This document shows positions 18-6,877 of a stretch of 36,381 bases of DNA, piece after piece. Location: NCBI GenBank assembly GCA_947628035.1, contig CANQYL010000012.1, positions 1 to 36,381 on the forward strand, in the 5' to 3' direction. A program made the position numbers and the translations under genes. Below the pieces are notes generated by a model. It was not told the origin of the DNA and searched no databases. It saw nothing but the letters and a program-made list of their open reading frames with translations. This DNA comes from an uncultured Akkermansia sp. GTDB lineage: Bacteria; Verrucomicrobiota; Verrucomicrobiia; Verrucomicrobiales; Akkermansiaceae. Every line of letters starts with the position of its first letter. The first letter of the stretch is position 1.

Positions 18-71
18 GGTGACCGTTTATTTTGAGGCATCGGCCTTCGGTGACTTTTTCTTTTGAGGCAT
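18..71 (+). repeat. Left-end tandem repeats of the insertion sequence
   Basis: Two 23-base copies lie at 18-40 and 49-71. Both begin GGTGAC and end TTTTGAGGCAT, and they match at 20 of 23 positions. The second copy lies inside the 3' end of the transposase frame. Duplicated terminal motifs of this sort usually serve as transposase binding sites in integrase-type elements. Confidence 0.7.
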
Positions 72-1308
72 TACGCCATATCGTTTCGCTATTTCGTCCC
101 GCTCTATTTCGCAATCCGGTGCCTCCTTATCCATCTCTCGTATCATCTGCCATACCCTTCGTAGCCCATTCTGGTTCATTTTAACCATCTTAAATGGATC
201 ATTGGTCTGTAATGCCCTTTCAATTGCTTGCTTTGTCTGCTCTCCCGTGCCTTCCCATCGCATGATCCTTTCCGCCGGCGTTAGCGGACAGTCTTCATGT
301 CTCCTCTTCTCTTTGCTTCCTATTCTCTCCCGTGAGATTTGTTTAAGCTGCGGGCGATACAAGTTGTTGTAGAGTGACCAGCATTCGCACAATTCTTGCA
401 TCATTTCCATGACCTGCTGGTAACCGTACCTATCATACCCGAAAAAGTCGCGACAATGCGTCAAATTCTTCTCCTCGACGTACGCCTGGTCATTCTTCAC
501 TCCTGCTCGTGAGCGCGTCAAATGCAATCGCTCGCCCATTGTTTCTCTCATCAATGACCACCTTATTATCTCCCAGTTCATAAACTCTCCCCCCATTGTC
601 TGTATCTATTCCTAGCCACTTGAATGGGCAGCTCTCTTCTGCCCCTCCATAATGATCTATCACCTTGCGCGCTGAGCGATTCCACATCGCTCTCACCTCT
701 GTCCATCCACTCCATACGTCCGTCACCGTTAACAACCACACAAATGACCCACTCATATCCCCTCCGCATAACGCTACGCAATCCGCCTCCAACCATCCCG
801 GCTCATGCACGTCCCACTTCTCACTGCGTTGTTCTATGAGTCCCTTCACTGCATTCACGCTATGCCCTATGCGCCAGTTCTTCTCCCGTGGTTCTCTCTT
901 GTGATACTCTCTGATATATCTGTCTATCTGCGCTGCGCTTATGTTGCATATGCGCTCCTTTTCTTCCTCCTCTAAATACTCGCGCCTTTTATCGTTATTC
1001 CATGACTTTAACCACACTCTTAACGCTCCTTTTAATCTCCTCCCGCTCCAATAACCTGTCATATTCCATACCGTTCGTATGACTCTCTTGTCTTTATCTG
1101 TGTATTTGCGTGGTCTGCCCTTATTTTTTCTCCTTCCCTCTCCACTCCCATCTCTTTTCCCGGTAAGAAGTTTTTGTGCATATTTGCGCGTATATTCTGT
1201 TATTTCGCAGTATTGTGTGAGTATTTCGCCTCGGGCTTTCTTGTATCTGAGCCTTGCGTACTTGTTGCGATACTGCTCGGTGAGTTCTTGTATGGTTTCT
1301 TTTTTCAC
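27..1308 (-). pseudogene. Frameshifted integrase-type DDE transposase
   Basis: Read from 1308 leftward, the first frame encodes a basic N-terminal helix-turn-helix region, a linker and the first part of an rve integrase core, with a first catalytic Asp in LEADCVALCGG and a second in GIDTDNGG. The reading then has to move to another frame, which supplies EFMN, the TRSR...KNDQAYVEEKN block with the catalytic Glu, and the usual C-terminal LYNNLYRP segment, ending at 27. The break lies at a run of six G (plus-strand CCCCCC at 589-594). Removing one G would restore one continuous protein of about 425 residues. All catalytic residues are present across the two frames, so the lesion is recent, or a homopolymer sequencing error, or (less likely) recoding. 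A simple -1 slip would not join the frames. Confidence 0.85.
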
Positions 1309-1323: not shown

Positions 1324-1411
1324 TTTTTTCGGCGTCCTCTATTTTTGAGGTAACCGATCCTAACTCATTGTACCATTCCTTCTTTTCGGCGTCCTGAATT
1401 ATGAGGTAACG
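1324..1411 (+). repeat. Right-end repeats of the insertion sequence
   Basis: Two related copies lie at about 1324-1355 and 1380-1411. Both contain TTTTCGGCGTCCT followed, a few bases on, by TGAGGTAAC. They resemble the left-end motifs through the shared TGAGG core and can be aligned with them in either orientation because the motif is partly palindromic. They lie between the transposase start and the flanking DNA, as expected for the right terminus. Confidence 0.65.
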
Positions 1412-1691
1412 CGTTTGCCCTGAACACAAGCCTGATGAGCTTGACTGGTGGAGAGCGACGTGGTAGAATGCGACAGTTCCGTTCAGGGATAACAAGCTGC
1501 TACCTATCCGCCCGTCCTAACGAGAGGTTGCGCATACCGGAGCAGCGCGTTCACGATGATGGAACGAACAGACACGAACGTGTTCGGGTGCAGGATGACG
1601 GCGAAAGCGTTGGAATCAAAATGCCGGACGCAGGCACATCGTATGACATGACAAATCTGCAGTAAAAACAAACGCTTAACGCCTGAGACCC
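1412..1691 (+). other. Spacer between insertion sequence and the 1692 gene
   Basis: This stretch holds a good rightward promoter (1441-1469) and then about 215 bases of apparent leader before the ATG at 1692. A 76-codon open frame (1435-1665) runs through it, but it begins upstream of the predicted transcription start and has no recognisable composition, so I do not call it a gene. No clear terminator or known riboswitch core is recognised. The leader is long compared with the roughly 10-20 base leaders elsewhere in this window. Confidence 0.5.
1441..1469 (+). promoter_or_regulatory. Sigma70-type promoter for the 1692-7465 gene set
   Basis: A -35 box TTGACT (1441-1446) and a -10 box TAGAAT (1464-1469) are separated by exactly 17 bases. 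It is the only strong promoter seen before the 1692-7465 set, whose members have gaps of 9 bases or less. It lies immediately outside the right end of the insertion sequence, so the element has not displaced it. Confidence 0.7.
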
Positions 1692-4232
1692 ATGTCCTAC
1701 CAGATTATCCACACCAACGTGTATCACCGGCAAGGGGAGATCGCAACCGATGCCGAGGTACTGGCTCGCAGCGTCCGTTTCCCCGTCCAATTGGAGGAGA
1801 AACTCCTCAAGAAAGCAGGACGAGCTGTTTCGGATGAGATGGGGCTGTGCGGACCTTGTTACAGCTATCATTGCGTAGGTGAGGCCTCAGAGCGGCTGCA
1901 TATACTCACCTGCTCGACTTGCAAGGGGGGAGGAGAAGCCGCGACAACTCTCGTGCATCATATCGTTCTCACAGAAGCGGAGATCTTGACGTTAAGAGCT
2001 GCAAAAAGACCCGTTACACCGGCAGGAATCGCCCTCCTCTTGGAACGGCAAGGAATATGGATACATAGAGAACATGATCTGATGCAGAGGGAGTCGGATA
2101 CCTCCGTTCTGAGGCTTGCGGCCTCCTGTCCTGATTCGGACAATCAGCCCGCGTGGTTCATCTTTACCGGAGACAACGCGAACGCACACATTTTGACGAA
2201 TCCGCCTTACTCGGAAGGCTGCCTTCTGCTCGTTCCCCCAGGAACGTGGACACGAGATCTACTGCGTCTCGTGCACGAGAGTGATTCTCTTGACGGACAA
2301 TGGGGCTGGGGAACACCCTTCTGCACCAATGCGAACAAAACTGATGCCACCTGCGTCAAGCAACGGCTTTTCTGCGCTGTGCAAGTTCCCTTACGTGAGC
2401 TTGAACAAGCCACACACCTGCCCGTGCTGGAGATAAAGCGCGGGATCCGTGGGCAGGAAACGGTCAGCGCGAAGCCTTTACAAACTGTACCGAGGGAATC
2501 GACACCAATGGCAAAACCGCTCGAGGGATCAACGGGACACGTCTCACCTCCTTCAACAAGCCGTTTGGAGTCTCTTCCTCAACCCTTCTGTCGTTACACC
2601 GAATACACGAACGAGAATCTCATTGAGTTGTCCTCGCCCGATCAACTCGCCTCCTCACGAAGTTGGCTGTTCAGCACCGTTGTGACGACGGCTGTTGCCT
2701 CCATCATCATCGGCACGGCGCTATGGTTTTTCTTAGGCGGAGGGAACGATGGAGAGGAGGAAGAATGGAGCAACATCCCTTTTCTTCATCACCAAGCAGC
2801 TTCCGAACTCCAAACCGAGGAACAAACTGAGGAAGTAACCCTTGAGGACAATATCGAAACGAGTCGGCAGGAAGCGCCATCCGCTCACCCCTCTGTCCCT
2901 CCCGAAGTGCCTACCCCAGAGACAGCGACTGCCTCCACGCAACTGGGTTCTGTCCAACCCCCAGACGACACAAGCACGGAACAGGTATCCTCTCCGAATC
3001 CATCCCCGTCCCCCCTTCCGGGAAAGATGAAAGCCTATTTTCCCGGGGACACTTTGCCGAGCGAGCTCCTGCCGGGGGACACCGCGGAGTTCACAAGCGG
3101 GCGATTGATCCTGTGGTACCACACGGATGCCTCCGGTTCCGAAATTCCGAAACAACAGATCGTCACTCTCAGGGAAGGAGAAAACTCTCTCAGAATCAAA
3201 AAATCAGGAGGGGGCTTCTATCAATTCACGGTTATGCGGGGGAAAGAACGCGACACCGAATATCCGGAGATCCTGGTAAGCGTTTCCCACGGCAAGCTGA
3301 AAGAATGCAGCGTCAAGAATATGCCCGCAGCTGTCCAAATCCCCGTCCTCGATGCTCAGGGGAGCTCTCTGAATTGTTTTCTGCTCATCCCGGAGGTGAA
3401 GACGCGCATCTACCCCACTCAGCGGAACGACCTGCCACAAGCAGATACCCCCTTACACGTCTCCCACCTCGACTCTTGCCTCACTGTCTCCAAATACGAG
3501 CTCAAACCCATTCTGCGCGGTAAAAATTATCCATGGATATCCATGCTCTCCCAGCAGACCTGCGAGTTCGAACCGGAGATGACGCTCTACCTGCCTCTCT
3601 TCGACGCGCCAAACCGCATTGTGGTGGCACCAACAAAAGGAGCCTATACCTGCGATCTTCGTCCCTACCCGACAGATGAATCAGGCGTACAAACGGTGAG
3701 CTGTCGGGTGAAGCAGGTGTTTGACTGCCGTGCAGCCGTACGCGCGGCACTGCGTTCCTACGCTCACTCGGTACGACAAGGTCATGCAGCGGAGAACACT
3801 GTGGCGCACCTCTACTACGTACTCACCGAGCTGAATGAGGCTCGCGGGAAAGAGCGACGCGAGCGGATCATCGATTATTACGCCTCCCTCTTTCGTGCCA
3901 CCCAATTTGGTGATTTCCTGCGTGAAAATGTTCTCAAGGGGTATGAAGAACTCATGCCGACCCGCAGGGACATCCGCGAAAACATGGACTCCGTGCATGC
4001 AGCTTCTCCAACACTGCGAAACAAGCTTATGGTGCGTGAAAACGATGAATTGCTCCTTAAAGCCGTCAAAAAATCATTTGCAGATATCATTCAGAGTGTC
4101 TATGATGATGAGCGCAAAAAATTCACAGAATCTTCTCTCCCGTCGTTCAACATCAAACTCACAAGAGTACAGTTCAACAAGAAAGGTGAGTTGATCTGGT
4201 TTTTTGAACTGAGTGTTTTATCGTCCGCCTAA
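1692..4232 (+). CDS. Large single-pass membrane protein with GAP1-N-like N-terminal domain
   Basis: An 846-residue protein of no assigned function. Residues 1-235 resemble the N-terminal domain of GTPase-associated protein 1 (GAP1-N2-like). The similarities are an opening IIHTNVYHRQGE, then LARSVRFP near 24-31, LVHHIVLT near 87-94 and a WGWGTPFCT block near 204-212. These families are known from NTPase-linked conflict or signalling systems, but the match is from memory of motifs. A proline/serine linker follows (about 255-320), then one membrane helix (about 324-348), an acidic stretch with EEEE, and a long Pro/Ser/Thr-rich linker to about 445. A larger C-terminal region (450-846) is probably periplasmic and has a helical part from about 675. 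The stop overlaps the next ATG by one base, so the two proteins are probably made together. No Shine-Dalgarno is visible before the ATG. The assignment to GAP1-N is moderate and the biological role is unknown. Confidence 0.8.
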   Translation: MSYQIIHTNVYHRQGEIATDAEVLARSVRFPVQLEEKLLKKAGRAVSDEMGLCGPCYSYHCVGEASERLHILTCSTCKGGGEAATTLVHHIVLTEAEILTLRAAKRPVTPAGIALLLERQGIWIHREHDLMQRESDTSVLRLAASCPDSDNQPAWFIFTGDNANAHILTNPPYSEGCLLLVPPGTWTRDLLRLVHESDSLDGQWGWGTPFCTNANKTDATCVKQRLFCAVQVPLRELEQATHLPVLEIKRGIRGQETVSAKPLQTVPRESTPMAKPLEGSTGHVSPPSTSRLESLPQPFCRYTEYTNENLIELSSPDQLASSRSWLFSTVVTTAVASIIIGTALWFFLGGGNDGEEEEWSNIPFLHHQAASELQTEEQTEEVTLEDNIETSRQEAPSAHPSVPPEVPTPETATASTQLGSVQPPDDTSTEQVSSPNPSPSPLPGKMKAYFPGDTLPSELLPGDTAEFTSGRLILWYHTDASGSEIPKQQIVTLREGENSLRIKKSGGGFYQFTVMRGKERDTEYPEILVSVSHGKLKECSVKNMPAAVQIPVLDAQGSSLNCFLLIPEVKTRIYPTQRNDLPQADTPLHVSHLDSCLTVSKYELKPILRGKNYPWISMLSQQTCEFEPEMTLYLPLFDAPNRIVVAPTKGAYTCDLRPYPTDESGVQTVSCRVKQVFDCRAAVRAALRSYAHSVRQGHAAENTVAHLYYVLTELNEARGKERRERIIDYYASLFRATQFGDFLRENVLKGYEELMPTRRDIRENMDSVHAASPTLRNKLMVRENDELLLKAVKKSFADIIQSVYDDERKKFTESSLPSFNIKLTRVQFNKKGELIWFFELSVLSSA

Positions 4233-6370
4233 TGTCACGCGCCTCCCATCAATCACCCTGGCGAACGCTTCGCCGTCTTGCTTTATCCGGAAAAAAGGAT
4301 GAGGCGGAAGCATTCTTGTTGCGCATGCTCAAGGACAACCCGGACGACAGAGAGGCCAGAGCCGAACTGACCCGTCTCCAAGCAGGGCAGAGTTTGCTCT
4401 GCACGGAAAGCAAAAAAGAACGCAAAAAGCGGGTTTCCCAGGAAGTACGGGAATCCATCGACAAAGTCATCCAACGTTACGGGGAACCTCATATCCTCTC
4501 TTGCTCTTCCTCCGACGACCTCCATGCTCTCCGTAAGCAGTTAAAAAATCAACTCAGCCTTCTCAAAGAAAACAAGACACCGGCACCTCAAGGCACGGCG
4601 GATTTTTGTCAAATGCTTGAAAGGGAACTGAGTCGGCGACGAAAGAAAGGCTCGCGCGTCTTGTTCCGATGGCTCGGCGGCTGCTTTTTCGTTCTTCTTG
4701 CGGCAGGGGGCGCCTTGTGGCTACTGCACCGACGGGCTCTCTCCCTCTGCGACCAGCTGGAAGCCTCCCTCAGAGCGAACGAATGGGGAAAAACAGAACA
4801 ACTTCTGCAGGCAACGGATACAGGCATTAATCGACTACTTGCCAAAAGAATAGAGACCCTGGCGGGAAATGTGAAGCGTTGGCAACAGAGCGTGCCACGT
4901 CGAGCTGCCGAATTCGCCCAGAAAATCAGCCTCTACAAAAAACACCATGCCGTCTCTTCCATCAGCATGGAGGAGCGGAGTGAACTCCTGAGAGAAATAC
5001 GTGCCTTGCCGGAACCCTTTTCCAAGAAATTATTGGCCGATTGGGATGAGCTGTGTCGTCCGGAGCGCGAAGTGCTTGAACGGCAAAAACAGGAAACTGT
5101 CGCCCGCCTTACACTCCCCTACCCTCAGCCAAAACTCAGCGGGAATCTGGATGAGGACCTCCCCGTGTTACGTACCGCTGACAAGGAACTCTCCGCCCTA
5201 CTGAAAGACTTTTGTAACGCCCAGACCCTCTTCGATCTCGATTCGTCCATCATCGCCTCGAACAAAGACATTGCTGACAGCGTAGCGCAATGCCTATCTG
5301 ATGCTGAGCAACTGAAGCGCGCTCAGGTTCTTCTTGGCACTGCCCGCACTTATGGAGAACATCTCCACTCGCTGAAGGGATTCAAACCTGCCCTGTACGC
5401 GCCGGCTCGGCAAGCGTACACCAGCAGCCGGGAACTCCCGGCGACGGAAGAGGAGATGCAGGCCATGCTGCGTTCCATGCGGCATAACATCCCCCGACAC
5501 CTCCCGGACCACGTTCTGAAGGCCATCCTGCACAGAGGACCCAGTTTTGGTCAACACGCCCCGGCCTCTGTGGAGCACCTGCATATCATGGAGGAACTCT
5601 TCACCTCGGCCTCCTTGCGGCAAGTTCTTTACGAGATCGTGGCTCTCGATGGTCGCGTCATCTACTCCAATGAGGCGCCGAAATTGACAGAAAAAGGAGG
5701 CGCACACCTGGTACGCTCAGACATCGATCCTCAATACAAGCCCGGAGAGAACGCTCAAATCTTTCTGCCGATAGCAGCCGGCATGAGAGTGCGTTGTATC
5801 GACCCCCGTCCGCTTCTCAAAGCCGTGCGCCTGGAACGCGCCACGTTTTTCCTCACGGCGAACCTGCCGGATCTGCTCGGACGCCTCACCTGCATTCAAG
5901 ATGAGAACTGCCCAGCCCTGGCGAAAGCATACACCTTCAACACATTGCTGAAAATTATACACACGCATCCCAAGCAGAAAGTCCTCGGACTCCGTTTTGC
6001 TCCTACCATGGAGAGAGACATCCGTTCCTTCTTGGAGCTAGAAAAGAGTCTGAATTACCCCCTTACTCCGAACTGCTGGCTGAGTCGCTCCACGGCAGCA
6101 ACCGCCGCCGAACTAGCGTTCAATGAATGGTTTCGTGATCACGCACGGCGTGACTACTCAGCCGAAATGAAGCGTAACTTCGAGATTGTCCTGAAAGGAC
6201 GTTCCCACTACATCGGCTTCATCGATATCAACTCCAAGCCCAATTTCAAAGCATTTTATTCTCCTAAATCCGACACCTTGCGTTACTTCTCCAAGGGTCA
6301 GCTTGTCGCCTCCCCCGCCGGGGAACCTCTCCAATCTCCGGATCCTTTTTCACCCATCTTCCGTGATTAA
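4232..6370 (+). CDS. Single-pass membrane protein, partner of the GAP1-N-like gene
   Basis: A 712-residue protein I do not recognise. The N-terminus (about 10-50) looks like a TPR-type helix pair with KDNPDDREARAEL. It is followed by a basic helical cytoplasmic segment, one membrane helix (about 142-165) preceded by ELSRRRKKGSR, and a long region that should lie across the membrane. The part from 170 to 420 is predicted by eye to be mostly helical and charged. The part from about 450 to 690 is more mixed, with aromatic and beta-like stretches such as RSHYIGFIDINSKPNFKAFY. Its topology mirrors the upstream protein: cytoplasmic N-domain, one helix, large outer part. The start codon shares one base with the preceding stop (TAATG), implying coupled translation. 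It is followed after 6 bases by a phosphoesterase gene. No catalytic motif is evident. Confidence 0.8.
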   Translation: MSRASHQSPWRTLRRLALSGKKDEAEAFLLRMLKDNPDDREARAELTRLQAGQSLLCTESKKERKKRVSQEVRESIDKVIQRYGEPHILSCSSSDDLHALRKQLKNQLSLLKENKTPAPQGTADFCQMLERELSRRRKKGSRVLFRWLGGCFFVLLAAGGALWLLHRRALSLCDQLEASLRANEWGKTEQLLQATDTGINRLLAKRIETLAGNVKRWQQSVPRRAAEFAQKISLYKKHHAVSSISMEERSELLREIRALPEPFSKKLLADWDELCRPEREVLERQKQETVARLTLPYPQPKLSGNLDEDLPVLRTADKELSALLKDFCNAQTLFDLDSSIIASNKDIADSVAQCLSDAEQLKRAQVLLGTARTYGEHLHSLKGFKPALYAPARQAYTSSRELPATEEEMQAMLRSMRHNIPRHLPDHVLKAILHRGPSFGQHAPASVEHLHIMEELFTSASLRQVLYEIVALDGRVIYSNEAPKLTEKGGAHLVRSDIDPQYKPGENAQIFLPIAAGMRVRCIDPRPLLKAVRLERATFFLTANLPDLLGRLTCIQDENCPALAKAYTFNTLLKIIHTHPKQKVLGLRFAPTMERDIRSFLELEKSLNYPLTPNCWLSRSTAATAAELAFNEWFRDHARRDYSAEMKRNFEIVLKGRSHYIGFIDINSKPNFKAFYSPKSDTLRYFSKGQLVASPAGEPLQSPDPFSPIFRD

Positions 6371-6376
6371 AAGATT

Positions 6377-6877
6377 ATGCTGGTAGCTGTCTTATCAGAT
6401 GTCCACGATGAGGAAGAGACCCTGAAGCGAGCCCTGAATCTGGCAGAAGAGGTCGGTTGCACACACCTTTTGTACCTGGGAGATTTTGTGGGCACGGACA
6501 CCCTGCGCTGTATGCGGGCAACGTGGAGACACCCTATGGACATCGTCGCGGGAAACAATGACTATCCACGCTATGCCTTTCACAACCTCGTGAGGGAGTA
6601 CCCCGTCACGCGATTCAGCGACGAAAGCGCAGAACTTGAATTGGATGGAAGAAGGTTATACATGGCGCACGTGCCGGGTTATTCCCTGCGAAAAGCTGCA
6701 ACCGACGGACTCTACGATGCCATCTTTTACGGGCATACCCACCGAGCGGATGTCCAACATATCGGACACACCATCATCGCTAATCCCGGGGATATTCAGG
6801 GCAGGTTCGGCAATCCTTCTTTTGCCATCTACAACACCGCTGATAACTCCCTGAGATTTTTTTCTCTCTCTGACTGA
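6377..6877 (+). CDS. Calcineurin-like metallophosphoesterase (YfcE/MJ0936 type)
   Basis: A 166-residue protein covering the whole small metallophosphoesterase fold. The metal-binding motifs are in order: SDVH (Asp8, His10), LGDF (Asp36), AGNND (Asn60-Asn61), AHVPG (His98) and YGHTHR (His120, His122). Members of this family hydrolyse phosphodiesters such as bis-p-nitrophenyl phosphate in vitro with a dinuclear metal centre, and natural substrates are usually unknown. It has no signal peptide, so it is cytoplasmic. It lies 6 bases after the large membrane gene and 9 bases before the phosphopantetheinyl transferase gene, consistent with one transcript. It may be unrelated in function to the two membrane proteins. 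Confidence 0.88.
   Translation: MLVAVLSDVHDEEETLKRALNLAEEVGCTHLLYLGDFVGTDTLRCMRATWRHPMDIVAGNNDYPRYAFHNLVREYPVTRFSDESAELELDGRRLYMAHVPGYSLRKAATDGLYDAIFYGHTHRADVQHIGHTIIANPGDIQGRFGNPSFAIYNTADNSLRFFSLSD

Follow-up and report, generated by a model that had tools for sequence, protein, structure and literature searches.

The window analysed here is a stretch of 36,381 nt, contig C12 of a genome of 2.36 Mb (G000). Two large genes on its forward strand, A (1692–4232, 846 aa) and B (4232–6370, 712 aa), were read from the ORF list and their translations, and they join at TAATG, a one-base overlap of stop and start codons. Both are present as a first-pass annotation of the sequence had given them. The single membrane helix it had placed in each protein agrees with hydropathy, which gives one strongly hydrophobic segment in A (~324–349, best 19-residue window 330–348) and one in B (~143–166, best window 147–165). 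Basic residues stand ahead of the segment in A and acidic ones behind it, and RRRKKGSR stands ahead of the segment in B; these flanking charges are consistent with a topology in which both N-termini are inside. Full-length homologues of A and of B occur throughout the genus and the pair is syntenic. Hence, the pair represents more than a chance arrangement. Indeed, a neighbourhood survey of related genomes found the two genes adjoining in most of them, as expected from their proposed linkage.

The nearest named relative in the collections searched is a MAG from rabbit gut, uncultured Akkermansia sp. Lapin-004 bin12 (L155), one relative returned by a contig scan with a single B protein as the query. 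It is 93.5% identical to window positions 1408–6575 and lacks the insertion sequence that precedes the pair in the window. This element had been described as lying directly upstream. It is real, but it ends 284 bp before A. The intervening DNA holds the former operon promoter and what is left of a deleted gene (Table 1), so that the two are not directly adjacent. The insertion sequence is incidental to the A–B system. At the very start of the window, positions 1–75 hold a 75-base sequence with 15 further copies in the genome. Almost all of these sit at contig ends, and unrelated sequence follows each copy; the 75 bases are the terminal part of an element that is present many times and breaks up the assembly.

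Table 1. Features of the A–B locus, in window coordinates. X is the gene upstream of A in relatives, G025 is one such relative and L155 is the rabbit-gut MAG.
Feature	Position	Strand	Basis
Insertion sequence, overlapping transposase ORFs 27–596 and 490–1308	27..1308	-	ORF list
Insertion sequence boundary	~1408		alignment: the match to L155, which lacks the element, starts at 1408
Upstream region and decayed 5ʹ end of X (codons ~1–44)	1436..1617	+	DNA alignment to G025 X
Predicted σ70-like promoter, TTGACT-17-TAGAAT with TG	1441..1469	+	promoter scan; alignment to G025; same in L155
A residues 1–250, cytoplasmic GAP1-N2 (+M-like) domain, predicted longin/DENN-like fold	1692..2441	+	leave-out HMM, hhalign, AF2, VIA-align
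A transmembrane helix core, residues 330–348, low-complexity linkers on either side	2679..2735	+	hydropathy, AF2
A ectodomain	3012..4229	+	AF2 pLDDT mostly >90; weak Ig-fold matches
B residues 1–146, cytoplasmic helical part, TPR-like start	4232..4669	+	TPR_14 E 0.0035, AF2
B transmembrane helix core	4670..4726	+	hydropathy
B ectodomain, helical, SH3-like barrel, conserved C-terminal domain	4727..6367	+	VIA-align, class conservation

The A protein of the window has no Pfam match of its own, and direct comparison with Pfam, NCBIfam and PADLOC gave no usable match. Among 38 members of the A family, 20 match PF20013 (GAP1-N2; best E 1.5e-22) and one matches PF20014 (GAP1-M), and the region after GAP1-N aligns with GAP1-N2 proteins. 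A leave-out profile built from only ten GAP1-N2 proteins outside the window's lineage found the window A at E 7.4e-20, and hhalign of the A N-domain against GAP1-N2 proteins gave 99.85% over 235 columns. Furthermore, the window A keeps all 13 of the columns that are invariant across the class in the GAP1-N2 alignment. The motifs on which a GAP1-N-like domain had been proposed (LARSVRFP, LVHHIVLT and WGWGTPF) are in the A translation, and the proposal can be sharpened: residues 1–250 correspond to GAP1-N of subtype N2. Judged by these comparisons, A is a divergent GAP1-N2 protein.

The AF2 model of A (mean pLDDT 80.9) is confident outside the linkers, with a helix at 316–349. It shows a β-rich ectodomain, Ig-like at least at 443–568, followed by a helical bundle at 680–813 and a terminal hairpin. 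Ig-fold matches of this ectodomain in VIA-align are weak (Z 2–3.5), and Pfam gave no effector or FNIII match. For B, the mean pLDDT is 89.7. The TPR_14 match at its start lies below the curated Pfam cut-off, VIA-align finds an SH3-like barrel of the DUF903/YgdR type at residues 464–529 (window 5621–5818; Z 6.0–6.8 over 51–56 residues, rmsd 1.9–2.9), and the C-terminal domain is conserved throughout the class. A PADLOC match of B to JetC (E 2e-4) was rejected as low-complexity helix similarity in a coiled-coil stretch.

In relatives, a third gene, X, of ~580 aa lies immediately upstream of A. Pfam matches DO-GTPase2 in 15 of 22 X members and FHA in one of 22; two CxxC pairs are invariant in the X alignment, and a P-loop, DxxGE and KxD are present in most members. 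By its sequence, X belongs to DO-GTPase2, begins with an FHA-like part and carries zinc ribbons. Among 47 related genomes of the genus, 34 carry X, and A directly follows it in all 34. Of the 33 loci that could be judged, 29 have B next after A; it is missing there in G007 (main locus), G009, G023 and G027, and the locus of G018 is divided between contigs. X and A are both missing in G008, G014 and G047. Genes for a phosphoesterase and a PPTase usually come next after X-A-B. Gene coordinates place X-A-B in four further families of this order and class as well (f4, f2, f13 and f39). B is therefore the constant third component of the verrucomicrobial version. In genus g8 the operon runs on into genes for a GYF protein, a MotA/ExbB protein and two small single-TM proteins (L067 153–2859, L068 656–3347 and L076 3–2833), which suggests coupling to a proton-driven motor. 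B also occurs without X and A (L077 7960–10080 and L078 5468–7588), where the preceding ORF begins like phosphoglycerate kinase.

GAP1 domains had been attributed to MoxR/vWA-type conflict systems. They belong instead to GTPase-centric systems, in which GAP1 is the partner of DO-GTPases (Kaur 2020 eLife, PMC7159879). No MoxR AAA+ or vWA gene was seen among the scanned neighbours of A–B in the window or in the annotated related loci. Nor is a membrane-spanning GAP1-N protein a new architecture, as had been suggested, since GAP1-N2 is often fused to C-terminal TM helices and sometimes to extracellular cadherin domains (PMC7159879). The likeness to these published systems extends to a GAP1-N2 gene downstream of a zinc-ribbon DO-GTPase, a TM helix with an extracellular β-sandwich, and reported occurrence in verrucomicrobiae. 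In contrast, the system described here has a constant third gene and a fixed syntenic position, has no recognisable effector, tubulin, HSP70 or kinase theme, and has lost its GTPase gene in the window's lineage. What is new here is the conserved gene B, a state without GTPase that is nonetheless selected and, with moderate probability, a DENN-like fold.

The deletion of the GTPase, the system's normal third gene, in this lineage was missed by the first-pass annotation. A DO-GTPase gene stands directly upstream of A in all 34 other main loci of the genus that have A, and is absent for the window A. Searches of the window's genome with the X protein, the X profile and Pfam family PF19993 gave nothing over cut-off. 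Window 1436–1617, between the insertion sequence and A, aligns with the G025 X gene at its 5ʹ end and in the region ahead of it with a local score of 115 (shuffle maximum 55), and the X protein profile reaches on this stretch a score equalled by one of 2000 shuffles; the 3ʹ end of G025 X has no match in window DNA. L155 carries the same remnant beside A, and hence the same deletion, with no insertion sequence. X was therefore lost before the insertion sequence arrived. Because the contig ends in the insertion sequence, X might lie hidden in an assembly gap; the remnant and L155 speak against this. The PSD gene, usual upstream neighbour of X, is elsewhere in the genome with no X beside it. By computation, X has been deleted in the window's lineage and the rest of it is gone. 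Of a bacterial GTPase switch made up of three genes, A and B are left. The predicted promoter that overlaps the remnant corresponds in the DNA alignment to the region upstream of the G025 DO-GTPase gene, is unchanged in L155, and is now the nearest predicted promoter upstream of A. The A–B pair is presumably transcribed from it.

Are A and B still functional? Their loss may simply be incomplete, with both proteins non-functional since the loss of X and the mutations still to come. The piecemeal losses of X with A, or of B, in the genomes listed above are what a dying system would leave, as are the eroded GTPase motifs of other genomes. X has lost its catalytic glutamate in G032 and in five out of six relatives of the window's clade. 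DxxG is missing in G022, G002, G042, G029 and G006, and the P-loop also in G002, G042 and G029. The GTPase is eroding elsewhere in the genus. However, two species keep A and B at full length, and the comparison of the window with L155 gives an omega of 0.26 for A (bootstrap CI 0.19–0.35) and of 0.23 for B (0.16–0.34), values from one species pair by a simple method whose intervals lie well below 1; some of the substitutions could predate a late loss of X, although the shared remnant implies a shared loss. Within A, omega is 0.22 (CI 0.13–0.39) for the GAP1-N part and 0.54 (CI up to 1.1) for the linker. For B, omega is 0.15 between G008 and G014, two species in which the locus has neither X nor A. 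The 283 bases upstream of A (window 1408–1691) have 12 differences from L155, where ~37 are expected at the synonymous rate, and are thus conserved above synonymous sites. Synonymous sites in A and B differ by 13–16%; the promoter explains part of the conservation of 1408–1691, and the leader does not. A and B are under purifying selection, and a system already dead is an improbable explanation. The genomes instead form a series, from an intact GTPase to one without the catalytic glutamate, then without the P-loop, and finally to no gene, with A–B or B alone kept. This stepwise series is a natural experiment in which the membrane parts are left without the switch.

What might the N-domain of A contribute? 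To our knowledge, the GAP1 name rests only on adjacency to GTPases, and the domains have no assigned role. In the AF2 model the first eight elements of A are E3–10, E20–26, H32–42, E56–64, E67–78, E85–94, H95–102 and H110–119, an order that presumably fits the longin order of elements. VIA-align matches residues 1–306 to the DENN domain of DENND1B (3tw8) over 229 residues with rmsd 4.9 and Z 8.5, a value from one predicted model of a long protein that is barely over the typical chance best of 7–8. The second fold match, C9orf72 (7mge), is also a DENN protein (Z 4.7), the next unrelated chain scoring 3.5; the Foldseek TM-score of A against C9orf72 is only 0.10–0.20. A profile of the N-domain found no DENN protein among PDB sequences. 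Two other candidates were rejected: STAM-binding protein, the sole PDB profile match (E ~0.6), and ygiF, the top Foldseek match (E 5.5e-4), with TM-score 0.08 and rmsd 30. The fold of the A N-domain is predicted, with moderate probability, to be DENN-like.

DENN has been treated as eukaryotic, and longin as derived from prokaryotic Roadblock (Zhang 2012, PMC3521125). Neither fold is mentioned for GAP1 in PMC7159879, and a partial literature search, in which absence is weak evidence, found no paper joining GAP1-N2 to DENN or longin. The predicted A would resemble the Rab-GEF/Arf-GAP modules of DENND1B and C9orf72-SMCR8 in the fold of residues 1–306, in the strand/helix order and, in relatives, in partnership with a GTPase. 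Unlike them, it would be a bacterial module without detectable sequence similarity, fused to a TM ectodomain, and the partner in its system is a TRAFAC DO-GTPase rather than Rab or Arf. Like the proposed pair of X and A, MglA/MglB, a Ras-like GTPase with a Roadblock GAP, is a bacterial GTPase with a longin/Roadblock-related regulator (PMC3521125), whereas Roadblock is a circular permutation relative to longin and MglB is soluble. Tentatively, then, GAP1-N2 (with GAP1-M) may truly be a longin-DENN module of bacteria, a regulator of DO-GTPases and counterpart of the eukaryotic Rab/Arf regulators, that has become a GTPase-independent transmembrane device in this Akkermansia lineage; we regard this as possible, somewhat short of probable. 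If true, the fold would give GAP1 a role, that of a GTPase regulator tied to the cell exterior through a membrane-anchored ectodomain, and a bacterial version would make the origin of the DENN module testable.

Around the family membership, operon, deletion and selection established by computation, we propose the following. In relatives, the X-A-B operon would encode a cytoplasmic FHA-like/zinc-ribbon DO-GTPase (X), a GAP1-N2 protein with one TM helix and a periplasmic Ig-like/helical ectodomain (A), and a protein with a TPR-like domain, one TM helix and an ectodomain that contains the SH3-like barrel (B). The N-domain of A, predicted to be longin/DENN-like, may bind and regulate the GTPase, and A and B would link the state of the GTPase to the envelope. 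In the window's lineage, with X deleted and the surviving operon promoter apparently now upstream of A–B, the two proteins would work without the GTPase, as a GTPase-independent envelope scaffold or sensor. A–B is probably the membrane half of a verrucomicrobial GAP1-N2/DO-GTPase2 system that lost X and, kept by selection, works GTPase-free; its function is most likely that of a GTPase-less envelope-spanning complex. Alternatively, A and B could by now rely on a different GTPase whose gene lies somewhere else in the genome, which would account for the constraint on the GAP1-N part of A and for its retention of the residues invariant across GAP1-N2. We consider this improbable: in the genome no other DO-GTPase passes the curated cut-off, and the remaining matches are to generic P-loops, with E values of 0.04 or worse.

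An anti-phage conflict system, with A as the sensor of an invader, a threshold set by the GTPase and killing or containment left to an effector, would fit the assignment of the GAP1-N2/DO-GTPase2 families to biological conflict (Kaur 2020, PMC7159879). It would also fit the fast evolution of A, which is 42% identical between the window and G025, compared with 56% for B, 64% for MPE and 67% for the downstream membrane protein. However, PADLOC found nothing credible, no effector domain is recognisable, and the locus is single-copy at a fixed syntenic position by the phosphoesterase and PPTase genes and is not mobile. There is no phage match, A is not encoded by any phage record, and A–B persist without the GTPase switch. 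A conflict role is therefore unlikely, and we favour the GTPase-less envelope-spanning complex.

Sequences related to A also occur away from the main locus. In the window's genome, C115 (L062, 4196–5593) encodes a paralogue of the A ectodomain with its own TM helix and no GAP1-N domain, directly behind a 1307-aa protein with a pilin-like N-terminus; G025:C77 holds a similar copy. G007 has a second, canonical GAP1-N2 locus (L063, 3099–12660), after which come a Sel1/ankyrin protein and a GYF protein. Solo A-like proteins of ~780 aa, with no adjoining X or B, occupy a different, conserved position (L069 6616–8988, L081 6557–8914, L111 5013–7331, L112 4915–7266 and L113 5406–7757), and are another GTPase-less GAP1-N2-like state.
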